In this document: piece after piece, positions 42,520 through 56,091 of the stretch
Position numbering within the stretch: position 1 is the stretch's first letter
Layout: every line of letters begins with the position of its first letter
Assembly (NCBI GenBank): GCA_019163175.1
Contig: JAFLKN010000043.1
Span: 1 to 64,000 of the forward strand
Direction: 5' to 3'
DNA length: 64,000 bases
Source of the DNA: Prolixibacteraceae bacterium
GTDB lineage: Bacteria; Bacteroidota; Bacteroidia; Bacteroidales; Prolixibacteraceae
Notes under the pieces: generated by a model
Told to the model about the DNA's origin: nothing
Database searches by the model: none
Seen by the model: only the letters and a program-made list of their open reading frames with translations
Translations under genes and position numbers: made by a program

Positions 42520-43110
42520 TTATTTGATTTCAACATCGTAGGTATAATCTTTGTCTTTGGTCGAAAGAACCGCTGTATAAGTTCCTTTGTCTAGCTTTGA
42601 AATGTTCAAGGCTTCATTCACATTGAAACTACGGCCCATTTCCTTGGTGTATAACAATTGCTTCTGATCATAGAAGTTCAGAGTCAGGTTTTCCTTGGGG
42701 AAATTCAGATAACTGCATCTTAGTAATCCATTATTGTATCCAAAATAAGGTTCAAGGACCGTTTTTTCGTCGCCAACTTCGATTTTCCAGCTTTTAATTT
42801 CGAATTCACGTTCGGCGGTCAACCTATCACTTTCTACCGAAAGTTTGTACTGACCAGCTTCAAGGTCGGAGAAATCAAACACTTTTTTGTAGTCTCCAGC
42901 GGGGTCGGTAACTTCTTTGTAATAAACGATAAGTCCCCGACTGTCTTCTACTTTAATTTTCAGGTTGCTTTCAGTAAGGCTCGAAATGGCTACAATAGCT
43001 TTTTCTGCTGATAGCGGTTGGATGTTCACTTTCAGGTTTCCGCTGGCAAATAAGGTGTTCGCAAATGCTACAAACGCGAACATTAAAGTCACTTTCAAAA
43101 TTGTTTTCAT
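42520..43110 (-). CDS. Small secreted beta-rich protein (paralogue of 55492 gene)
   Basis: This 196-residue protein has a signal peptide (about 1-22, FVAFANTLFASGNLKV) and then beta-rich sequence with SAEKAIVAISSL, GLIVYYKEV and LEAGQYKLSVESD. It ends in SKLDKGTYTAVLS. It aligns along its whole length with the 199-residue protein at 55492. I do not recognise a family with known function; the repeated pattern of a Gly-x-Tyr strand suggests two Ig-like or secretion-tail-like sandwiches. It is likely periplasmic or surface and transcribed alone. Confidence 0.6.
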   Translation of the reverse strand: MKTILKVTLMFAFVAFANTLFASGNLKVNIQPLSAEKAIVAISSLTESNLKIKVEDSRGLIVYYKEVTDPAGDYKKVFDFSDLEAGQYKLSVESDRLTAEREFEIKSWKIEVGDEKTVLEPYFGYNNGLLRCSYLNFPKENLTLNFYDQKQLLYTKEMGRSFNVNEALNISKLDKGTYTAVLSTKDKDYTYDVEIK

Positions 43111-43295: not shown

Positions 43296-44015
43296 CTATC
43301 TTCCGTGAACGTCGCCGCCGCTTGATTCGTTTATGTCTTTGCTTTTTGGATTTCCGGAGTAGGTAATATCGCCTCCGCTGCTGGCATTGGCATCGAGTTC
43401 CTCCGAAACGTTTACCCGAATGTCTGATCCGCTAGAAACGCTGGCATTGCATTTTCTAGCCAGAAGTTCGCTGGCATTGATGTCGCTGCCGCTTGAAGCA
43501 CTGGCCTGTAAAAAATCGACTTTCCCTTTTACAAAAATGTCGGAACCGCTGCTTGTTTCCACGCTCAACTCGTTAGCTTCTAATTCAAGCTTAATATCAG
43601 ATCCGCTGCTGGCATCCAGATTAAGTTTAGTCAGCTTTAAGGCACCTTGTGAATTGACATCCGAACCTGCTGAAGCTTCCAGTTTATCCAGATCTTTGAA
43701 TGAAACATAGACTTTTCGGGGATCATTTCCCCAATTCATACTTAACCAGGATTTTTCTTTCACGTAAATTTTAAGGATGCCGCCTTCTACTTCTGTAATT
43801 ATCTTTTCCAGATCGTCAGCATCGGCTTCGACAAAAACTTCTTCAACATTTTTTTGTGTGAGGTAAACATCGATTCCACTTGAAACCGAAACTCCGTGAA
43901 ATCCGGTTATTTGTCGTTTCTGGCGGCCATCATTTTCATTGGCGGCCTTTAGCTGGTTGGCCTGAAACAGGACTGTGCCAATAAGAATAAGTGTAAAAAT
44001 TTTCATTGTTTTCAT
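43296..44015 (-). CDS. Head-GIN domain (DUF2807) secreted protein, copy 1
   Basis: This 239-residue protein has a signal peptide (to about 24) and the DUF2807 head-GIN fold, with ITGFHGVSVSSGIDVYLTQ near 36-54. It continues as a repetitive right-handed beta-helix with a recurring ASSGSDI/TSSGSDI motif about every 18-20 residues. DUF2807 proteins are abundant in Bacteroidota and may act as adhesins or surface polymers; function is unproven. It lies 35 bases downstream of a second copy (44051) on the same strand and is paralogous to it. Confidence 0.75.
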   Translation of the reverse strand: MKTMKIFTLILIGTVLFQANQLKAANENDGRQKRQITGFHGVSVSSGIDVYLTQKNVEEVFVEADADDLEKIITEVEGGILKIYVKEKSWLSMNWGNDPRKVYVSFKDLDKLEASAGSDVNSQGALKLTKLNLDASSGSDIKLELEANELSVETSSGSDIFVKGKVDFLQASASSGSDINASELLARKCNASVSSGSDIRVNVSEELDANASSGGDITYSGNPKSKDINESSGGDVHGR

Positions 44016-44050
44016 GTGTTTCTGTTCTGAGCGTTTATAACTGAGTTTTC

Positions 44051-44773
44051 TTATTTGCGATGAACATTTCCTCCTGAAGAAGTATCAACATCGGTTGAGC
44101 CTGGTTCGCCGTAATACACTACATTTCCGCCACTTGAGGCCTTGGCTTCAAGCTTATCGATTACAGTTGAAGCTACATTTCCACCACTGGATGCACGCAT
44201 TCTGCATTGGCCAACTTTTAATTCTTCACCTTTCAGGTTTGCTCCCGACGAAGTTTCCAGTTCAGCTTCTTTGGCCGCCCCCGATAGCCTGATGTTTGCG
44301 CCTGAAGAACAATCGGCTTTCAGGTATTGTGCGTCAACTTCCATTTTCAGGTTTGCGCCCGAACTAGCTTTTAATTCAAGATTGTCAGCGGTAAATTTGG
44401 CTTGTGTATAGCCATTGGATCCGGAACTGGCTTCAACGCCGGTAAGTTTTTCGACGGTTATCATCACCTTTTTTTCTTTGGCCCAACGTATATTTTCGTT
44501 AGCAGTTACTTTTAAAACATCACCCTCTACTTCAGTTTCAATTATTTCGTGCAGATTGCTGTCGGCAATAACTACAACTTTTGCGGGACTGCCCTGAGTA
44601 ATATATACATTCATTCCACGGCTTACTTTTATCTGGTCAAATTGGCCAACCTGTCTGATCTGCTCGGTAACTTCTCCATTTCCTTTTACTGATGGACCTA
44701 AAAACCAACAGGATGTAAAAATGATGCTTAGCAAAGCAAAAATCCCGATAAGTTGAAATTGTTTCCGTTTCAT
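44051..44773 (-). CDS. Head-GIN domain (DUF2807) lipoprotein, copy 2
   Basis: This 240-residue protein has a lipoprotein-like signal (SIIFTSCWF, Cys22) and the head-GIN opening VGQFDQIKVSRGMNVYITQ. Beta-helix repeats with ASSGANL, TSSGANL and ASSGGNV follow, ending SSGGNVHRK. It is closely related to the next gene, with alanine in the repeats where copy 1 has serine-aspartate. A -7 box (44822-44829) lies about 49 bases upstream, so this is the first gene of the pair. Such proteins often accompany PspC genes in Bacteroidota; one lies 8 kb away. Confidence 0.75.
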   Translation of the reverse strand: MKRKQFQLIGIFALLSIIFTSCWFLGPSVKGNGEVTEQIRQVGQFDQIKVSRGMNVYITQGSPAKVVVIADSNLHEIIETEVEGDVLKVTANENIRWAKEKKVMITVEKLTGVEASSGSNGYTQAKFTADNLELKASSGANLKMEVDAQYLKADCSSGANIRLSGAAKEAELETSSGANLKGEELKVGQCRMRASSGGNVASTVIDKLEAKASSGGNVVYYGEPGSTDVDTSSGGNVHRK

Positions 44774-47088: not shown

Positions 47089-47121
47089 TTTGTTGTCATC
47101 CGTCCAATTTTATTATTTTTG
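47089..47121 (+). promoter_or_regulatory. Promoter of the cytochrome-FGE operon
   Basis: TTTGTTG (47089-47095) and TATTTTTG (47114-47121) match the Bacteroidota -33 and -7 consensus elements with about 18 bases between TTG and the -7 box. The ATG is 43 bases downstream. Confidence 0.6.
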
Positions 47122-47164: not shown

Positions 47165-48718
47165 ATGTTCAAAAAGATAGGAAACTTCCTTCGTAAACGG
47201 GTTCTGCTCGTTTTATTCTTCTCATTTACCATTGGAATTTTAGCTACTATTTTTGCTGATCGCACCATCGAATATACTTCAACCGACGAGTTTTGTGCTT
47301 CGTGCCATGTTCATCCACATGTATTTCCTTCATGGAAACTGTCATCTCACTACGACAATAAGGGTGGAATACAGGTGCATTGTGTCGATTGCCATTTACC
47401 GCCCAAAGGCGAAGGCTACCTTGTAGAAAAAACCAAGCTTGGGCTTAAAGATCTTTATGGTTACATCTTCAAAGATTCAGCCGAATTTAACTGGGAGATG
47501 AAGTCTGAACTCGAACATGCTGTGAAGTATATCCCGAATGCATCGTGCAAACATTGTCACCAGAACCTGTTCCCGAAAAATTTAGTTGACGCAGGTATAG
47601 CTGCGCACCTTTACTACGAGAATAACGAGAAGAAACTGGATTTGCAGTGCATTAGTTGCCACCTCGACGTCGGACATTATAACCCAAACTACAAGCACGG
47701 CAAGATGACCGGCATACCGGGGCAGGCAGAGGGCGAAACCGACAGTTCGAAACCCGCTTTTGAACAGGCGACCAGCGTAACAACTTTTGCCGACTACACC
47801 GAGCAAATTCCCGGCACATCGGTATCGTTCAAGATGATTGCTTTAAAAGGCGGCGCCTTCAACATGGGTAGCCCCGAAAAAGAACCTTTCCACCAACCCG
47901 ACGAATCGCCGGTGCGACAGGTTACGGTCAGCCCGTTTTTCATGGCAGAAGTGGAAACAACCTGGGAAGAGTACTGGGCATTTTACGGTAACACAATGAG
48001 CGAAGGACGCACTCCGCCCGAACAGATTTATGCCAACAACAGTAACCCTGACGTGGATGCCATTTCCGGCCCCACCCCGCCTTATGGACGACCCGATCAG
48101 AACTGGGGTTTTGGTAAACGCCCGGCAATTACCATGACCCATTATGCGGCGGAAACCTTCTGTCAATGGCTTTCAAAGAAAACCGGCAAAAAATACCGCC
48201 TACCCACAGAAGCTGAATGGGAATACGCTGCTCGCGGTGGCACCGAAACGCCGTATTTCTTTGATGGCAAACCAAATAAATTCTCTAACAAAGGATTATG
48301 GCGTAAATTCTCGGACGCCGATACCGACCCGATTTCGCAGTACATCATATACACAAACAATGGCAAAGGCAAAACGCATTTGCCCGAAGAGGTTAAGTCT
48401 AATCCGTTCGGCCTGAAAAATATGCTGGGCAATGTAATGGAATATTGTGCCGACCACTATGCACCGGATGCTTATGCCAAGAACAGTGGAAATGTGACTA
48501 ACCCACTTGCAACTGAAGGCGACGAATGGGTTGTACGAGGAGGCAATTATAGTTCGGATGCCGCCGATGTACGCGCAGCAGCCCGCGACCACAGCCAGCA
48601 CGACGCATGGCTGAAAACCGACCCGCAACAACCCAAAAGTATCTGGTGGTATTCCGATATTAAAAGCATCGGCTTCAGGGTTGTTTGTGAGCCAGATAAT
48701 TCAATAAAAATTCAATAG
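47165..48718 (+). CDS. Membrane tetraheme cytochrome fused to an FGE/SUMF1-like domain
   Basis: This 517-residue protein has an N-terminal membrane anchor (about 12-31) and a NapC/NirT-type cytochrome region with four CxxCH heme sites: CASCH (44-48), CVDCH (73-77), CKHCH (128-132) and CISCH (162-166). After a linker a formylglycine-generating-enzyme-like (SUMF1/EgtB) domain runs from about 220 to 510, with GGAFNMGS, YRLPTEAEWEYAARGG, LGNVMEYC and WVVRGGNYSS. The FGE active cysteines are absent (RGGNYSSDAADVRAAARDH has none), so sulfatase activation is unlikely. NapC relatives pass electrons from quinol to periplasmic partners. It heads a three-gene operon and stands 34 bases before the next gene. 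Confidence 0.85.
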   Translation: MFKKIGNFLRKRVLLVLFFSFTIGILATIFADRTIEYTSTDEFCASCHVHPHVFPSWKLSSHYDNKGGIQVHCVDCHLPPKGEGYLVEKTKLGLKDLYGYIFKDSAEFNWEMKSELEHAVKYIPNASCKHCHQNLFPKNLVDAGIAAHLYYENNEKKLDLQCISCHLDVGHYNPNYKHGKMTGIPGQAEGETDSSKPAFEQATSVTTFADYTEQIPGTSVSFKMIALKGGAFNMGSPEKEPFHQPDESPVRQVTVSPFFMAEVETTWEEYWAFYGNTMSEGRTPPEQIYANNSNPDVDAISGPTPPYGRPDQNWGFGKRPAITMTHYAAETFCQWLSKKTGKKYRLPTEAEWEYAARGGTETPYFFDGKPNKFSNKGLWRKFSDADTDPISQYIIYTNNGKGKTHLPEEVKSNPFGLKNMLGNVMEYCADHYAPDAYAKNSGNVTNPLATEGDEWVVRGGNYSSDAADVRAAARDHSQHDAWLKTDPQQPKSIWWYSDIKSIGFRVVCEPDNSIKIQ

Positions 48719-48752
48719 ATAACTGACTATCCACATTTAAAATTTATCCATT

Positions 48753-50168
48753 ATGAAAAAAGGTGTTGACAGACGTTCATTCTTGAAAAGCTCGGCTTTG
48801 GCCGGGGCATTGGGCGCAATTGGTACTGGAAGTGTTGCAACTTTAGCATCGTGTAGCAGTACTCCAAAAATACAGCCTTTGAAAGAGCCTGGCTCTTATT
48901 ATTTACCCAACTTGGTTGATCTGGCTACAGACGGTAAACCGCTGAAAGCTGGAATAATCGGCTGCGGCGGGCGAGGCTCTGGTGCAGCGTTTAATTTCCT
49001 CAACGCGGCCAATAATGTTACCATTGTGGCTTTGGGCGATACTTATGCTGACCGTCTGGAAGGCTTAGCTGAAAAGCTGAAAAAAGAGAAAAATATTGAC
49101 ATTGCAGCAGACAAAAAGTTCGTGGGGCTCGACGCTTATCAAAAAGTTATTGATAGCGATGTGGATGTGATTATTACTGCTACGCCACCCAATTTCCGCC
49201 CCGAAATTTTCAAGTACGCGGTGGAGAAAAACAAACATTGCTTCCTCGAAAAACCGATTTGTGTTGATCCGGTAGGTTACCGCACCATTGTGGCTACTGC
49301 CAAACAGGCTCAAGCAAAAGGCCTTTGCGTGGTAACCGGTACGCAACGTCACCATAAGCGCGATTATGTAGCTTCATACGAACAAATCATGAATGGAGCT
49401 ATCGGTGAAATAACCGGCGGAACGGTATACTGGTGTGGTGGTATGCTCTGGTTCAGGGACCGTGACCCAAAATGGTCGGATCTGGAATGGATGATCCGCG
49501 ACTGGGTAAACTGGGGATGGCTTTCGGGCGACCATATTGTTGAACAGCACGTTCACAATCTGGATGTATTCACTTGGTTCTCTGGATTGAAACCAAAATC
49601 AGCACTTGGATTCGGTTCGCGCCAACGCCGTGTTACCGGTAACCAGTTCGACAATTTCAGCGTCGATTTTGAAATGGAAAACGGCATTCACATTCACAGC
49701 ACTTGCCGCCAGATCAGCGGAACAGAAGGTGGCGTTTGGGAATTTATCCAGGGCACCAAAGGATCATGGTCTGCAACTTCCGACGGACATATTATCAAAG
49801 ACCTGAAAGGAACCGAAATTTGGAAATACGACCACGATGCTGAAAAAGCTAAATTCAAACAGATCGACCCATATACGTTGGAACACGTGAATTGGATTAA
49901 CCATATCCGCGCCGGAAAACCGATTGATCAGGCATCCGAAACAGCTGTTGCCAACATGGCTGCTATCATGGGACGCGAATCGGCATACTCCGGAAAGAAA
50001 GTCACTTGGGATGAAATGACTGCTTCGCCGCTTGATCTTTTCCCGAAAGATATTGACATGACAAAAAGTATGGCTGCTGTCCAAAACGGGTATGGCGCTG
50101 GGAAAGAATTTAAGCTACCTGAATTTATTCACATTGCAGGAACACCGCAAGGAAACCAAACACGATAG
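48753..50168 (+). CDS. Tat-exported Gfo/Idh/MocA family oxidoreductase
   Basis: This 471-residue protein has a twin-arginine signal (RRSFLKSSA, residues 7-15) followed by a lipobox-like LASC (Cys34), so it is likely an exported, lipid-anchored enzyme. The Rossmann NAD(P) motif is GIIGCGGRGSG (67-77), with EKPIC (166-170) and the catalytic region SGDHIVEQHVHNLDVFTW (258-275). Family enzymes oxidise sugars or cyclitols, often with tightly bound cofactor; export through Tat implies folding with cofactor first. It lies between the cytochrome-FGE fusion and a TIM-barrel protein and ends three bases before the latter. Confidence 0.85.
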   Translation: MKKGVDRRSFLKSSALAGALGAIGTGSVATLASCSSTPKIQPLKEPGSYYLPNLVDLATDGKPLKAGIIGCGGRGSGAAFNFLNAANNVTIVALGDTYADRLEGLAEKLKKEKNIDIAADKKFVGLDAYQKVIDSDVDVIITATPPNFRPEIFKYAVEKNKHCFLEKPICVDPVGYRTIVATAKQAQAKGLCVVTGTQRHHKRDYVASYEQIMNGAIGEITGGTVYWCGGMLWFRDRDPKWSDLEWMIRDWVNWGWLSGDHIVEQHVHNLDVFTWFSGLKPKSALGFGSRQRRVTGNQFDNFSVDFEMENGIHIHSTCRQISGTEGGVWEFIQGTKGSWSATSDGHIIKDLKGTEIWKYDHDAEKAKFKQIDPYTLEHVNWINHIRAGKPIDQASETAVANMAAIMGRESAYSGKKVTWDEMTASPLDLFPKDIDMTKSMAAVQNGYGAGKEFKLPEFIHIAGTPQGNQTR

Positions 50169-50170
50169 GC

Positions 50171-51076
50171 ATGTCGCTTAACAGAAGATCTTTTATCGGA
50201 ACGGCCGTTTCTGGTGCTGCATTAGCAGCATCAGGCGGCCTTTTCTCTTCTTTTAAGGGTGAATCTGCCTCAGGCAAAAAGAAATCCGGCAAATTGAAAA
50301 TTTCGTGTCAGGAAGGTGTTGCCCCAGGCAATACGCTGACCGAAAAACTCGATTTCATGGAATCTCTGGATATTGTTGGCCTTGAAATTTGGGGTGGCGG
50401 TCTTGAAAAAAGAGTGAACGAAATCCAACAGGCTTTGCAGAACCGCAACATGAAAGTGAGTGCGATTTGCGCCGGCTTTGAAGGTTGGCTTATTGCCGAC
50501 GATCCTGCCATTCAGAAAAAGTGCATGGATTCGCTGAAGGTGATTATTGGCGCCGCTGGTGAACTGGGCTCGACCGGGGTAATTTTTGTACCTGCTTTCA
50601 ACAATCAGAAATCGTTGCCCGACAAATACGCGCGCGAATTGCTAATTGGACAAATGAAAGAACTCGGCGATTATGCACTTCAGCATAAAACCCGAATTTT
50701 ACTCGAACCTCTGAACCGTCAGGAATGCTATTTCTGTCGGCAGGTTGCTGATGGCGCTGCAATCGTGCGCGATGTAAACAGTGCCGGGGTTGCTGTAATG
50801 GGCGATTTCTGGCACATGACCTGGGAAGAAACCAATGATCGCGCAGCATTTCTGGCTGCTGGGGATTACCTTCATCATGTGCATATTGCCAGCCGCAAAC
50901 GCCGCAAAATGCCCGGAGAAGACGGTGTAGCAGATAACTACATCAACGGATTTCGTGGTCTGAAAGAAATTAATTATCAGGATTACGTGAGTTTTGAATG
51001 TGGCTCGGTAGGCGATTCGAAAATAACTTTGCCCGCAGCAGTAAAACTGATGCGCGAACAATGGAAAAAAGCCTGA
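50171..51076 (+). CDS. Tat-exported TIM-barrel isomerase/epimerase-like protein
   Basis: This 301-residue protein begins with a twin-arginine signal (RRSFIGTAVSG, residues 5-15). The rest is an AP-endonuclease-2/xylose-isomerase-type TIM barrel with metal-ligand candidates in LEPLNRQECYF, VMGDFWHM, LHHVHIASRKRR and YVSFECGS. Such proteins isomerise or epimerise sugars, or hydrate keto-sugar intermediates. It follows the oxidoreductase gene by two bases. Pairing with a Gfo/Idh/MocA enzyme recalls glycoside 3-oxidation pathways known in Bacteroides, but the exact substrate is unknown. Confidence 0.82.
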   Translation: MSLNRRSFIGTAVSGAALAASGGLFSSFKGESASGKKKSGKLKISCQEGVAPGNTLTEKLDFMESLDIVGLEIWGGGLEKRVNEIQQALQNRNMKVSAICAGFEGWLIADDPAIQKKCMDSLKVIIGAAGELGSTGVIFVPAFNNQKSLPDKYARELLIGQMKELGDYALQHKTRILLEPLNRQECYFCRQVADGAAIVRDVNSAGVAVMGDFWHMTWEETNDRAAFLAAGDYLHHVHIASRKRRKMPGEDGVADNYINGFRGLKEINYQDYVSFECGSVGDSKITLPAAVKLMREQWKKA

Positions 51077-51126
51077 TAAGCTGAAATGATAATCAATGTA
51101 TTTGATCCCGAGAGAATCATTTACTG

Positions 51127-51160
51127 ACCCGGATTCGGAAGAGTCCGGGTTTTCTGTTTT
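51127..51160 (+). terminator. Intrinsic terminator of the cytochrome operon
   Basis: ACCCGGA and TCCGGGT with inner TC/GA form a GC-rich stem (51127-51150), followed by TTTTCTGTTTT. It lies about 50 bases after the TIM-barrel stop. Confidence 0.85.
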
Positions 51161-55491: not shown

Positions 55492-56091
55492 TTATTCGAC
55501 ATTCAGATTGTATGTATAACTTTTTTCGTTTGATGAAAGAACTACTGAATAGGTTCCTTTTTCAAGTTTCGAAAGATTAAAACCTTCGCTAACATTGAAT
55601 TTATTACCAATTTCTTTGGTATAAACCAAGTTATCCCTGTCATAAAAGTTCAGGCTAAGGTCTTCTTCCGGGAAGTTCAGGTAAGAAAGCTTCAAAACGC
55701 CATCTTTGTAAGCAAAGAAAGGTTCCAGAATGCTTTTTTCTTTTCCAACAGCAATGTTTTTGCTTTCAATTTTAAACAAACGCTCAGTAGTTAAGGCATC
55801 AACGGTTACTGATAATTTGTAATCTCCTTTGTCGAGATTCGAAAAATCAAAAACCTTGCGGAAATCTTTGCTATCGGCATCGGTTTCTTTGTAATACACA
55901 ACTTCACCTTTTTCATTTGCTATACTTATTTGGAAATTGGCTGCTGCTGTGTTTGAAATTGCTACCACAGCTTTTTCAGCTGTTAGTGGAAGGATGTTAA
56001 CTTTTAAGTTTCCTGTTGCCATTAATGTGTTTGCAAATGCTACAAATGCAATCAACATTGTTACTTTTGAAATTGAATTAATTGTTTTCAT
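55492..56091 (-). CDS. Small secreted beta-rich protein (paralogue of 42520 gene)
   Basis: This 199-residue protein has a signal peptide (about 1-25, IAFVAFANTLMATGNLKV) and the same architecture as the protein at 42520. Matching segments include AEKAVVAISN, GEVVYYKE, KGDYKLSVT and SKLEKGTYSVVLSS. The pair diverged but kept the NxLKVNI opening and the GTY strand. Function is unknown; secretion and beta-rich repeats suggest surface or envelope association. Its upstream region carries a promoter box and three 16-bp-spaced repeats. Confidence 0.65.
   Translation of the reverse strand: MKTINSISKVTMLIAFVAFANTLMATGNLKVNILPLTAEKAVVAISNTAAANFQISIANEKGEVVYYKETDADSKDFRKVFDFSNLDKGDYKLSVTVDALTTERLFKIESKNIAVGKEKSILEPFFAYKDGVLKLSYLNFPEEDLSLNFYDRDNLVYTKEIGNKFNVSEGFNLSKLEKGTYSVVLSSNEKSYTYNLNVE

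Follow-up and report, generated by a model that had tools for sequence, protein, structure and literature searches.

A cytochrome–FGE fusion and a Tat-exported Gfo/Idh/MocA enzyme in Prolixibacteraceae: a conserved gene pair and a possible flavin route into respiration

Composition of the three-gene operon

The window analyzed here, a stretch of 64,000 nucleotides at the start of contig JAFLKN010000043.1 from a Prolixibacteraceae bacterium, carries an operon of three genes. These encode a tetraheme NapC/NrfH-like cytochrome fused to a domain of the formylglycine-generating enzyme (FGE) fold, an oxidoreductase of the Gfo/Idh/MocA family (Gfo) with a signal for twin-arginine translocation (Tat) and a lipobox, and a Tat-exported xylose-isomerase-type barrel (Table 1). 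The analysis confirms this composition, and the FGE domain and the Gfo enzyme turn out to be the conserved core of the unit. The second and third open reading frames (ORFs) comprise 471 and 301 amino acids, and the gaps of 34 and 2 bases reproduce the tight spacing described in a preceding sequence-only reading of this DNA. That reading also gave the operon a promoter and a terminator of its own. Both are found, the former (after what we take to be the Bacteroidota-type consensus) ending 43 bases ahead of the ATG of the first gene, yet both patterns occur near chance frequency across the window: two promoter matches against 1.6 expected, of which the position alone is informative, and eight terminator-like sites against 6.2 expected. 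A scan for sigma-70 promoters (nine sites against 7.7 expected) was uninformative for this window and was discarded.

Table 1. Features of the operon, with positions in the window
Feature	Position	Strand	Basis
Bacteroidota-type promoter TTTG-N21-TANNTTTG	47089..47121	+	pattern match
NapC/NrfH-like tetraheme cytochrome fused to FGE-like domain, 517 amino acids	47165..48718	+	ORF and Pfam; full-length relatives at 68 loci
Cytochrom_NNT domain, four CxxCH (residues 44-48, 73-77, 128-132, 162-166)	47198..47689	+	Pfam, alignment
FGE-sulfatase (PF03781) domain without catalytic cysteine pair	47831..48598	+	Pfam, residue scan
DAISGPT (D298-T304), ApbE-motif-like segment; T304 is the predicted flavin mononucleotide (FMN) attachment site	48056..48076	+	motif comparison
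Subfamily signature DPQxPKSxWW (D486-W495)	48620..48649	+	alignment
Gfo/Idh/MocA oxidoreductase; Tat signal (R7 R8), lipobox Cys34, NAD-site D96, EKP Lys167, His268	48753..50168	+	ORF, Pfam, fold match, alignment
Tat-exported xylose-isomerase-type TIM barrel	50171..51076	+	relative of PDB 3kws (392 bits) and 6wn6 (84 bits)
Intrinsic terminator-like hairpin, 11 pairs and T-rich tail	51126..51151	+	terminator scan

The N-terminal half of the first protein belongs to the NapC/NirT domain family (PF03264), with a match over residues 12-175 at 106.4 bits (curated cut-off 24.1). The anchor helix (residues 7-37) and the four CxxCH sites that had been read from the sequence are both present, the latter in all 65 fused proteins compared; residue counts refer to these 65, the three without an adjacent Gfo (L117, L119 and L143) being left out of the 68 fusion loci. 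Equally invariant (65/65) are H50 of the heme 1 motif CxxCHxH, and K89 and D96, which align with the Lys and Asp of NrfH (PDB 2j7a) that we take to be quinol-site residues. The PF03264 match and these two positions bear out the earlier assignment to the quinone-type cytochromes. The protein scores 71.4 bits against a cut-off of 134.2 for the NrfH family TIGR03153 and also lies under the cut-off of TIGR02161. It thus resembles the NrfH/NapC quinol dehydrogenases in its N-terminal anchor, four c-hemes and aligned Lys and Asp, but differs in its C-terminal FGE domain, in having a Gfo enzyme as partner and in heme 1, where the fusion family has a His in place of the Met of NrfH 2j7a and of another protein of the same genome (L003). 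Cytochrome c assembly genes are present in this genome.

The C-terminal half matches FGE-sulfatase over residues 223-478 at 132 bits. Formylglycine-generating enzymes use two copper-binding catalytic cysteines (Cys336 and Cys341 of SUMF1). Such a pair was not found in the 16 residues after [RK]GG in any of the 92 FGE domains scanned. A cysteine occurs there in 11 of the 92, including three of the 65 fused proteins, each with a single one in an R-C-A-A-R context, and the window protein has none. Because the pair is absent, formylglycine chemistry is not expected and a function as sulfatase activator is ruled out. The subfamily shares its fold with FGE/SUMF1 and PvdO but is set apart by the missing cysteines, by the D298-T304 segment, by the gene pairing with Gfo and by a signature of its own, in which D486, P487, P490, S492 and W494 each occur in 65/65 fused proteins. 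By fold and by NCBIfam score the top match is PvdO, at 89.8 bits against a cut-off of 500 for its family NF051459. PorK/GldK, in which the FGE fold has a structural role, are also among the fold matches; the 50 listed matches of the fold search include known FGE-fold proteins, and the search revealed no flavin site. The structure alignments A2 and A3 comprise 48 of 70 related rows and 41 of 42, respectively.

The twin-arginine signals attributed to the second and third genes were found as RRSFLK and RRSFIG. In the Gfo enzyme the former is followed by a lipobox (LASC, C34) that the sequence-only reading had not described. The Tat arginines are present in 92/92 Gfo proteins compared, as are D96, K167 and H268, which we take to be the family hallmarks of the Rossmann NAD site, the EKP lysine and the active-site histidine. 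Together with a PF01408 score of 48.6 bits and the fold matches, they place the enzyme in the Gfo/Idh/MocA family. A lipobox occurs in 62/65 Gfo partners of fusions and, under the same loose pattern, in 8/27 partners of unfused FGEs.

The earlier reading considered both enzymes to be of sugar-processing type, which agrees with the barrel. This carries an AP_endonuc_2 domain, is closest to PDB 3kws and also matches the 3-keto-D-glucoside 4-epimerase 6wn6. All six candidate residues of what we assume to be a Glu/Asp/His/Glu-type metal site, among them E179, D212, H215 and H238, are kept in 19/19 barrels, apart from E276 with 17/19 (two gaps), so that by sequence the barrel appears to have a metal site like that of 6wn6. 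It is not a member of the 5-keto-L-gluconate epimerase IolO family NF041099 (98.2 bits, cut-off 300). The suggested link to a 3-keto-glycoside pathway receives no support from the identity of the Gfo enzyme. BT2158-type glycoside 3-dehydrogenases of Bacteroides are likewise periplasmic and Gfo-type (PMC11300592), and their 3-keto-sugar logic is comparable; the window enzyme, however, scores only 28.8 bits against a cut-off of 750 for their family NF058561, and this assignment was rejected. Three proteins over that cut-off lie elsewhere in the genome (G000:C15:1981-3435, C1:188235-189719 and C1:186594-188051).

Conservation and joint exchange of FGE and Gfo

Gene order was set beforehand as a point on which the proposed unit could fail, and it is conserved: at 64 of the 68 fusion loci the fusion gene is immediately followed by Gfo, and at one (L041) Gfo lies immediately upstream. 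Of the three non-adjacent cases, L117 and L119 have a Gfo two or three ORFs upstream and L143 has none. Such an order is beyond chance because Gfo enzymes make up an estimated 1% of the genes of the window's genome (43 matches in 5.9 Mb). The 68 loci comprise 18 from a GTDB scan, two from the window's genome and 48 that were fetched, 46 of these from the family matches listed and two from a draw of the phylum. The fetched loci were chosen mainly for genus spread, with extra second copies, and with their neighbours unseen; one of them (G486) later proved to be L042, and since L157 lies on the same contig as L042, 67 loci are distinct. In the family, 139 of 140 genomes have some match to the 517-amino-acid protein at E <= 0.001 when FGE-only matches are counted, and full-length relatives show 53-91% identity among the matches listed. 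Sampling the phylum evenly yielded 3/394 at E <= 1e-60, the window's genome included. The best 80 of 521 relatives in the GTDB scan are 18 full fusions and 62 FGE-only proteins. The full fusions come from Tannerella, Parabacteroides, Dysgonamonadaceae, Sunxiuqinia, Mariniphaga and Maribellus, with others named only Bacteroidales, Bacteroidia or Bacteroidota. The unit is real, co-inherited and conserved in many Bacteroidales.

Both fusions of the window's genome have a Gfo directly downstream. The second, 56% identical to the first, lies at L006:3827-8093 (G000:C1:360500-378000), preceded by a gene for an 852-amino-acid protein and followed by its own Tat-type Gfo and then by a second Tat-type Gfo. 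The five other FGE proteins of this genome are more than 35 kb away from all 43 Gfo places or on other contigs.

What the sequence-only reading described as a cytochrome–Gfo unit needs to be redrawn in one respect: the order of fusion and Gfo stands, but the core is FGE plus Gfo, not cytochrome plus Gfo. A Gfo-like ORF lies within five ORFs in 36 of the 62 FGE-only loci. Where the FGE ORF was callable (53 of the 62, the other nine being outside all counts of unfused FGEs), Gfo is next downstream in 28 and next upstream in three, or 31/53 in total. Records of such pairs are named, among others, Flavobacteriaceae, Chitinophagaceae, Planctomycetota, Verrucomicrobia and Acidobacteria. The barrel is an optional part of the unit, with a close relative at 19/68 fusion loci (22 under a looser clustering, 21 of them at position +2). 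The same FGE subfamily is also joined to heme domains of PSCyt1 type (one or two per protein), by Pfam in L059, L070 and L084 and by CxxCH sites and similar sequence in L080, L081 and L106; records of this kind are named Verrucomicrobia, Opitutia/Opitutales, Chthoniobacteraceae and Acidobacteriales. This second, unrelated heme capture agrees with a redox role of the subfamily.

Within the genus of the window the locus exists in two forms, A in ten genomes (the window included) and C in twelve. Irrespective of form, genus-mates are similar to the window in the upstream gene (80-85%, in 20/21), in cytochrome residues 1-100 (63-86%) and in the barrel where present (74-95%). The remainder splits sharply: identity between versus within forms is 43-50% versus 86-93% for hemes 3-4, 55-59% versus 90-94% for FGE and 54-56% versus 92-95% for Gfo. 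The FGE tree and the Gfo tree agree in their division into two groups (support 100/100). In the upstream-gene and barrel trees the form changes three times each, and 0/200 bootstrap trees have only one change; if only branches with good support are counted, one change is required in the upstream-gene tree and three in that of the barrel (one long row, G015, whose stretch lacks the upstream gene, so that the locus may lie elsewhere). No hybrid of FGE and Gfo forms was found in the 21 genomes, window included, in which both genes were read. Given this split in identities and trees and the lack of hybrids, we conclude that hemes 3-4, FGE and Gfo were exchanged together as a block while the flanks were conserved and hemes 1-2 remained behind. 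In L118, L120, L125 and L126, identity to the window falls at about codon 100-110 of the cytochrome gene, which probably marks a recombination breakpoint. Three form-C stretches (L167, L172 and L173) lack the barrel, and L179 is too short to judge.

Flavinylation motif and ApbE linkage

ApbE, the flavin adenine dinucleotide (FAD):protein FMN transferase, is described as placing FMN on the final residue of D-x-x-[ST]-G-A-[ST] (PMC12052999). Close to it is a segment specific to the FGE subfamily, D-A-[VI]-[ST]-x-[PA]-[TS]; DAISGPT in the window departs from the ApbE consensus by Ala to Pro. All 68 fusions carry D-[AG]-[IVF]-[STA]-G-[PA]-T, eight with the strict motif, and the corresponding columns of unfused FGEs match D..[STA].[AP][ST] in 48/53, five with the strict motif. 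Counted anywhere in the protein, the relaxed motif D..[ST].[AP][ST] occurs in 67/68 fused and 41/53 unfused FGEs, 0/118 Gfo proteins and 28/887 other ORFs, and the strict D..[ST]GA[ST] in 8/68, 5/53, 0/118 and 2/887, respectively. The relaxed motif is found in 0/5 of the other FGE proteins of the window's genome.

A gene for ApbE lies within 4.3 kb at 18/53 unfused loci versus 0/68 fusion loci (Fisher p = 5e-8; BLAST with one ApbE query). It is the next ORF in 12 of the 18 (the linked loci include L056:2470-5828, L061, L069, L091, L108 and 13 others), and no other ORF of at least 110 amino acids on these loci carries the strict motif. Fourteen of the 18 linked ApbEs, from several phyla, form one clade (support 100/98); on the ApbE tree the label of FGE linkage needs three changes, explained by recruitment on three occasions or by a single gain with two losses. 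In ten of the 18 linked genomes the ApbE copies (one to four per genome) were surveyed, and the FGE-linked one was found among them. In the L055 genome, a metagenome-assembled genome, it is the sole ApbE found, and searches for FMN_bind and DUF2271 (DUF3570 and NqrB were not searched) gave no match. None of the nine unfused FGEs that have Ala at position -1 has an ApbE close by (0/18 versus 9/32, p = 0.018). Small as the numbers are, this would be expected if a general enzyme serves canonical motifs and a dedicated ApbE the shifted ones. The window's genome has a single ApbE. Six unfused FGE genes directly adjoin a YceI-like gene (L076 by Pfam; L062, L075, L077, L092 and L105 by BLAST).

These features recall the ApbE-flavinylated extracytosolic carriers (FMN-bind, NqrB/RnfD, DUF2271, DUF3570, Flavodoxin_4 and FMN reductase), which share the motif or a close variant, linkage to ApbE genes and a connection to membrane electron transfer. 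On the other hand, most members of the FGE subfamily differ at the G or A of the motif, and we found no mention of the FGE fold among the substrate classes given in PMC8238504 and PMC11334425. Our literature search gave no paper that combines ApbE or flavinylation with formylglycine-generating enzymes and, by listing, nothing relevant on a cytochrome–FGE fusion, on 3-keto pathways with cytochromes or on FGE with NapC.

A possible respiratory outlet and its alternatives

Tat exports folded proteins; hence the Gfo enzyme would probably cross the membrane with nicotinamide adenine dinucleotide (NAD(H)) bound. There it may oxidise a sugar or a derivative of one, and the resulting NADH, still bound to the protein in the periplasm, would need an acceptor close at hand. 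Direct transfer from nicotinamide to heme, as in the sequence-only reading, is chemically unlikely. The FGE domain probably carries a flavin as the missing link, which would bridge the gap between two-electron and one-electron chemistry. Hydride from Gfo would pass to an FMN held covalently on T304, where ApbE would have attached it; from the FMN, electrons would move one at a time onto the four c-hemes in the NrfH-like half and on to menaquinone, a flow from sugar that is thermodynamically favoured by the potentials. Where present, the barrel may isomerise, epimerise or cleave the keto-sugar. We regard a flavin bridge as the most economical explanation of the data, and give the complete route from Gfo-bound NADH to menaquinone an even chance of being correct. 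The sequences themselves show the gene order, the joint exchange of FGE and Gfo, the loss of the cysteine pair, the conserved motif, the ApbE linkage of unfused FGEs, the invariant heme-domain residues and the export signals, and all of these favour the route; the bound NAD, the FMN, the substrate and the path and direction of the electrons are inferred.

Several observations weigh against this route. Regarding the motif, Pro takes the place of the Ala in 60/68 fusions, 12/18 ApbE-linked FGEs read R-P-[ST] instead of G-A-[ST], a true FGE has D-A-V at the aligned place, so that the Asp is not independent evidence, and the loop is predicted with a local confidence score (pLDDT) below 50. The linkage is likewise incomplete: the ApbE search that gave no hit on the fusion loci also left 35/53 unfused FGEs without a neighbour, 7/18 linked ApbEs are on the opposite strand, and other possible substrates exist, namely FMN_bind in 3/10 and DUF2271 in 2/5 ApbE-linked genomes tested (absent in 7/10 and 3/5) and three FMN_bind places for the ApbE of the window's genome. 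A directly adjacent Gfo is lacking for 22/53 unfused FGEs, and among the six PSCyt1-type fusions only L070 has one. The CxxCHxH of heme 1, in place of CxxCHxM, means that equivalence of the quinol site with that of NrfH is not assured. Finally, FGE distances correlate with those of Gfo at 0.86, yet those of the cytochrome part also do so at 0.78; as this is not specific, the mirror-tree approach was dropped as proof of partnership and the block exchange used instead.

In a more general form, this FGE-fold subfamily may be a covalent flavoprotein that acts as plug-in carrier for Tat-exported NAD-dependent Gfo enzymes. Some lineages would use a dedicated ApbE clade that reads R-P-[TS], and quinones would be fed via NapC-type hemes in Bacteroidales and via PSCyt1 hemes, YceI or other carriers elsewhere. 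We put this forward tentatively, as somewhat short of an even chance.

Alternatively, the FGE-like domain could be a docking or substrate-binding scaffold, with Gfo and barrel running a redox-neutral keto-sugar cycle in which NAD is recycled inside Gfo; the cytochrome would then occasionally rescue over-reduced enzyme or serve another partner. The absent cysteine pair, the PorK/GldK matches and the FGE–Gfo pairs without a fused cytochrome would all suit such a scaffold, as would an Agrobacterium tumefaciens operon whose Gfo enzyme has been proposed, on preliminary evidence, to reduce 3-keto-glucose (PMC10628242). A scaffold has more difficulty with the recurrent ApbE neighbours, mostly of one clade, with the fusions to two unrelated heme domains and with the invariance of K89 and D96 in the cytochrome, and we consider it unlikely. 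Still less probable, in our judgment, is a catalytic role of the FGE-like domain itself, as a PvdO-like oxidoreductase that would act on what Gfo or the barrel produces and have the cytochrome as its electron acceptor or, in the opposite direction, as a donor fed by quinol. PvdO is the top match and is described as a putative oxidoreductase needed for periplasmic oxidation, which was purified in inactive form with no detectable cofactor and whose electron transport is unclarified (PMC6206403). Yet the NF051459 score is far below the cut-off, and catalysis alone leaves the ApbE linkage and the block exchange with Gfo unexplained. A module for periplasmic sugar oxidation in which nicotinamide enzyme and tetraheme cytochrome exchange electrons directly, as originally proposed, agrees with the gene order, the block exchange and the quinol-type cytochrome but is very improbable, since a flavin is normally required between a hydride donor and hemes that accept one electron at a time, the exchanged block takes in the FGE domain and not hemes 1-2, and FGE–Gfo pairs exist without a cytochrome.

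Assignment to any single known system fails on the tested features. In the FAD-dependent glucoside 3-dehydrogenases with a cytochrome c subunit, sugar oxidation also delivers electrons to a c-type cytochrome, but the catalyst is a GMC-type flavoenzyme and here it is an NAD-binding Gfo enzyme. To our knowledge, it is mostly unclear how periplasmic nicotinamide enzymes without access to soluble NAD(P) are re-oxidised, a question on which the unit bears, as some of the 43 Gfo matches of this genome are exported. If the flavin bridge holds, it would provide an entry point for protein-bound periplasmic nicotinamide into respiration, a model for PvdO and other oxidoreductases of the FGE fold and a candidate substrate for orphan ApbE genes; in the dataset of PMC8238504, 4% of genomes have ApbE but no known substrate.

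Elsewhere in the genome, L005:57-2577 (G000:C1) encodes an oxidoreductase, presumably of GMC type, followed by a multiheme cytochrome with a NapC domain, a possible flavin-type counterpart of the window system. Around the operon, two similar proteins of 196 and 199 amino acids, probably exported, flank the region on the minus strand (42520-43110 and 55492-56091), and two probably exported proteins with repeated SSGSD/SSGGN turns are encoded next to each other at 43296-44773, also on the minus strand.

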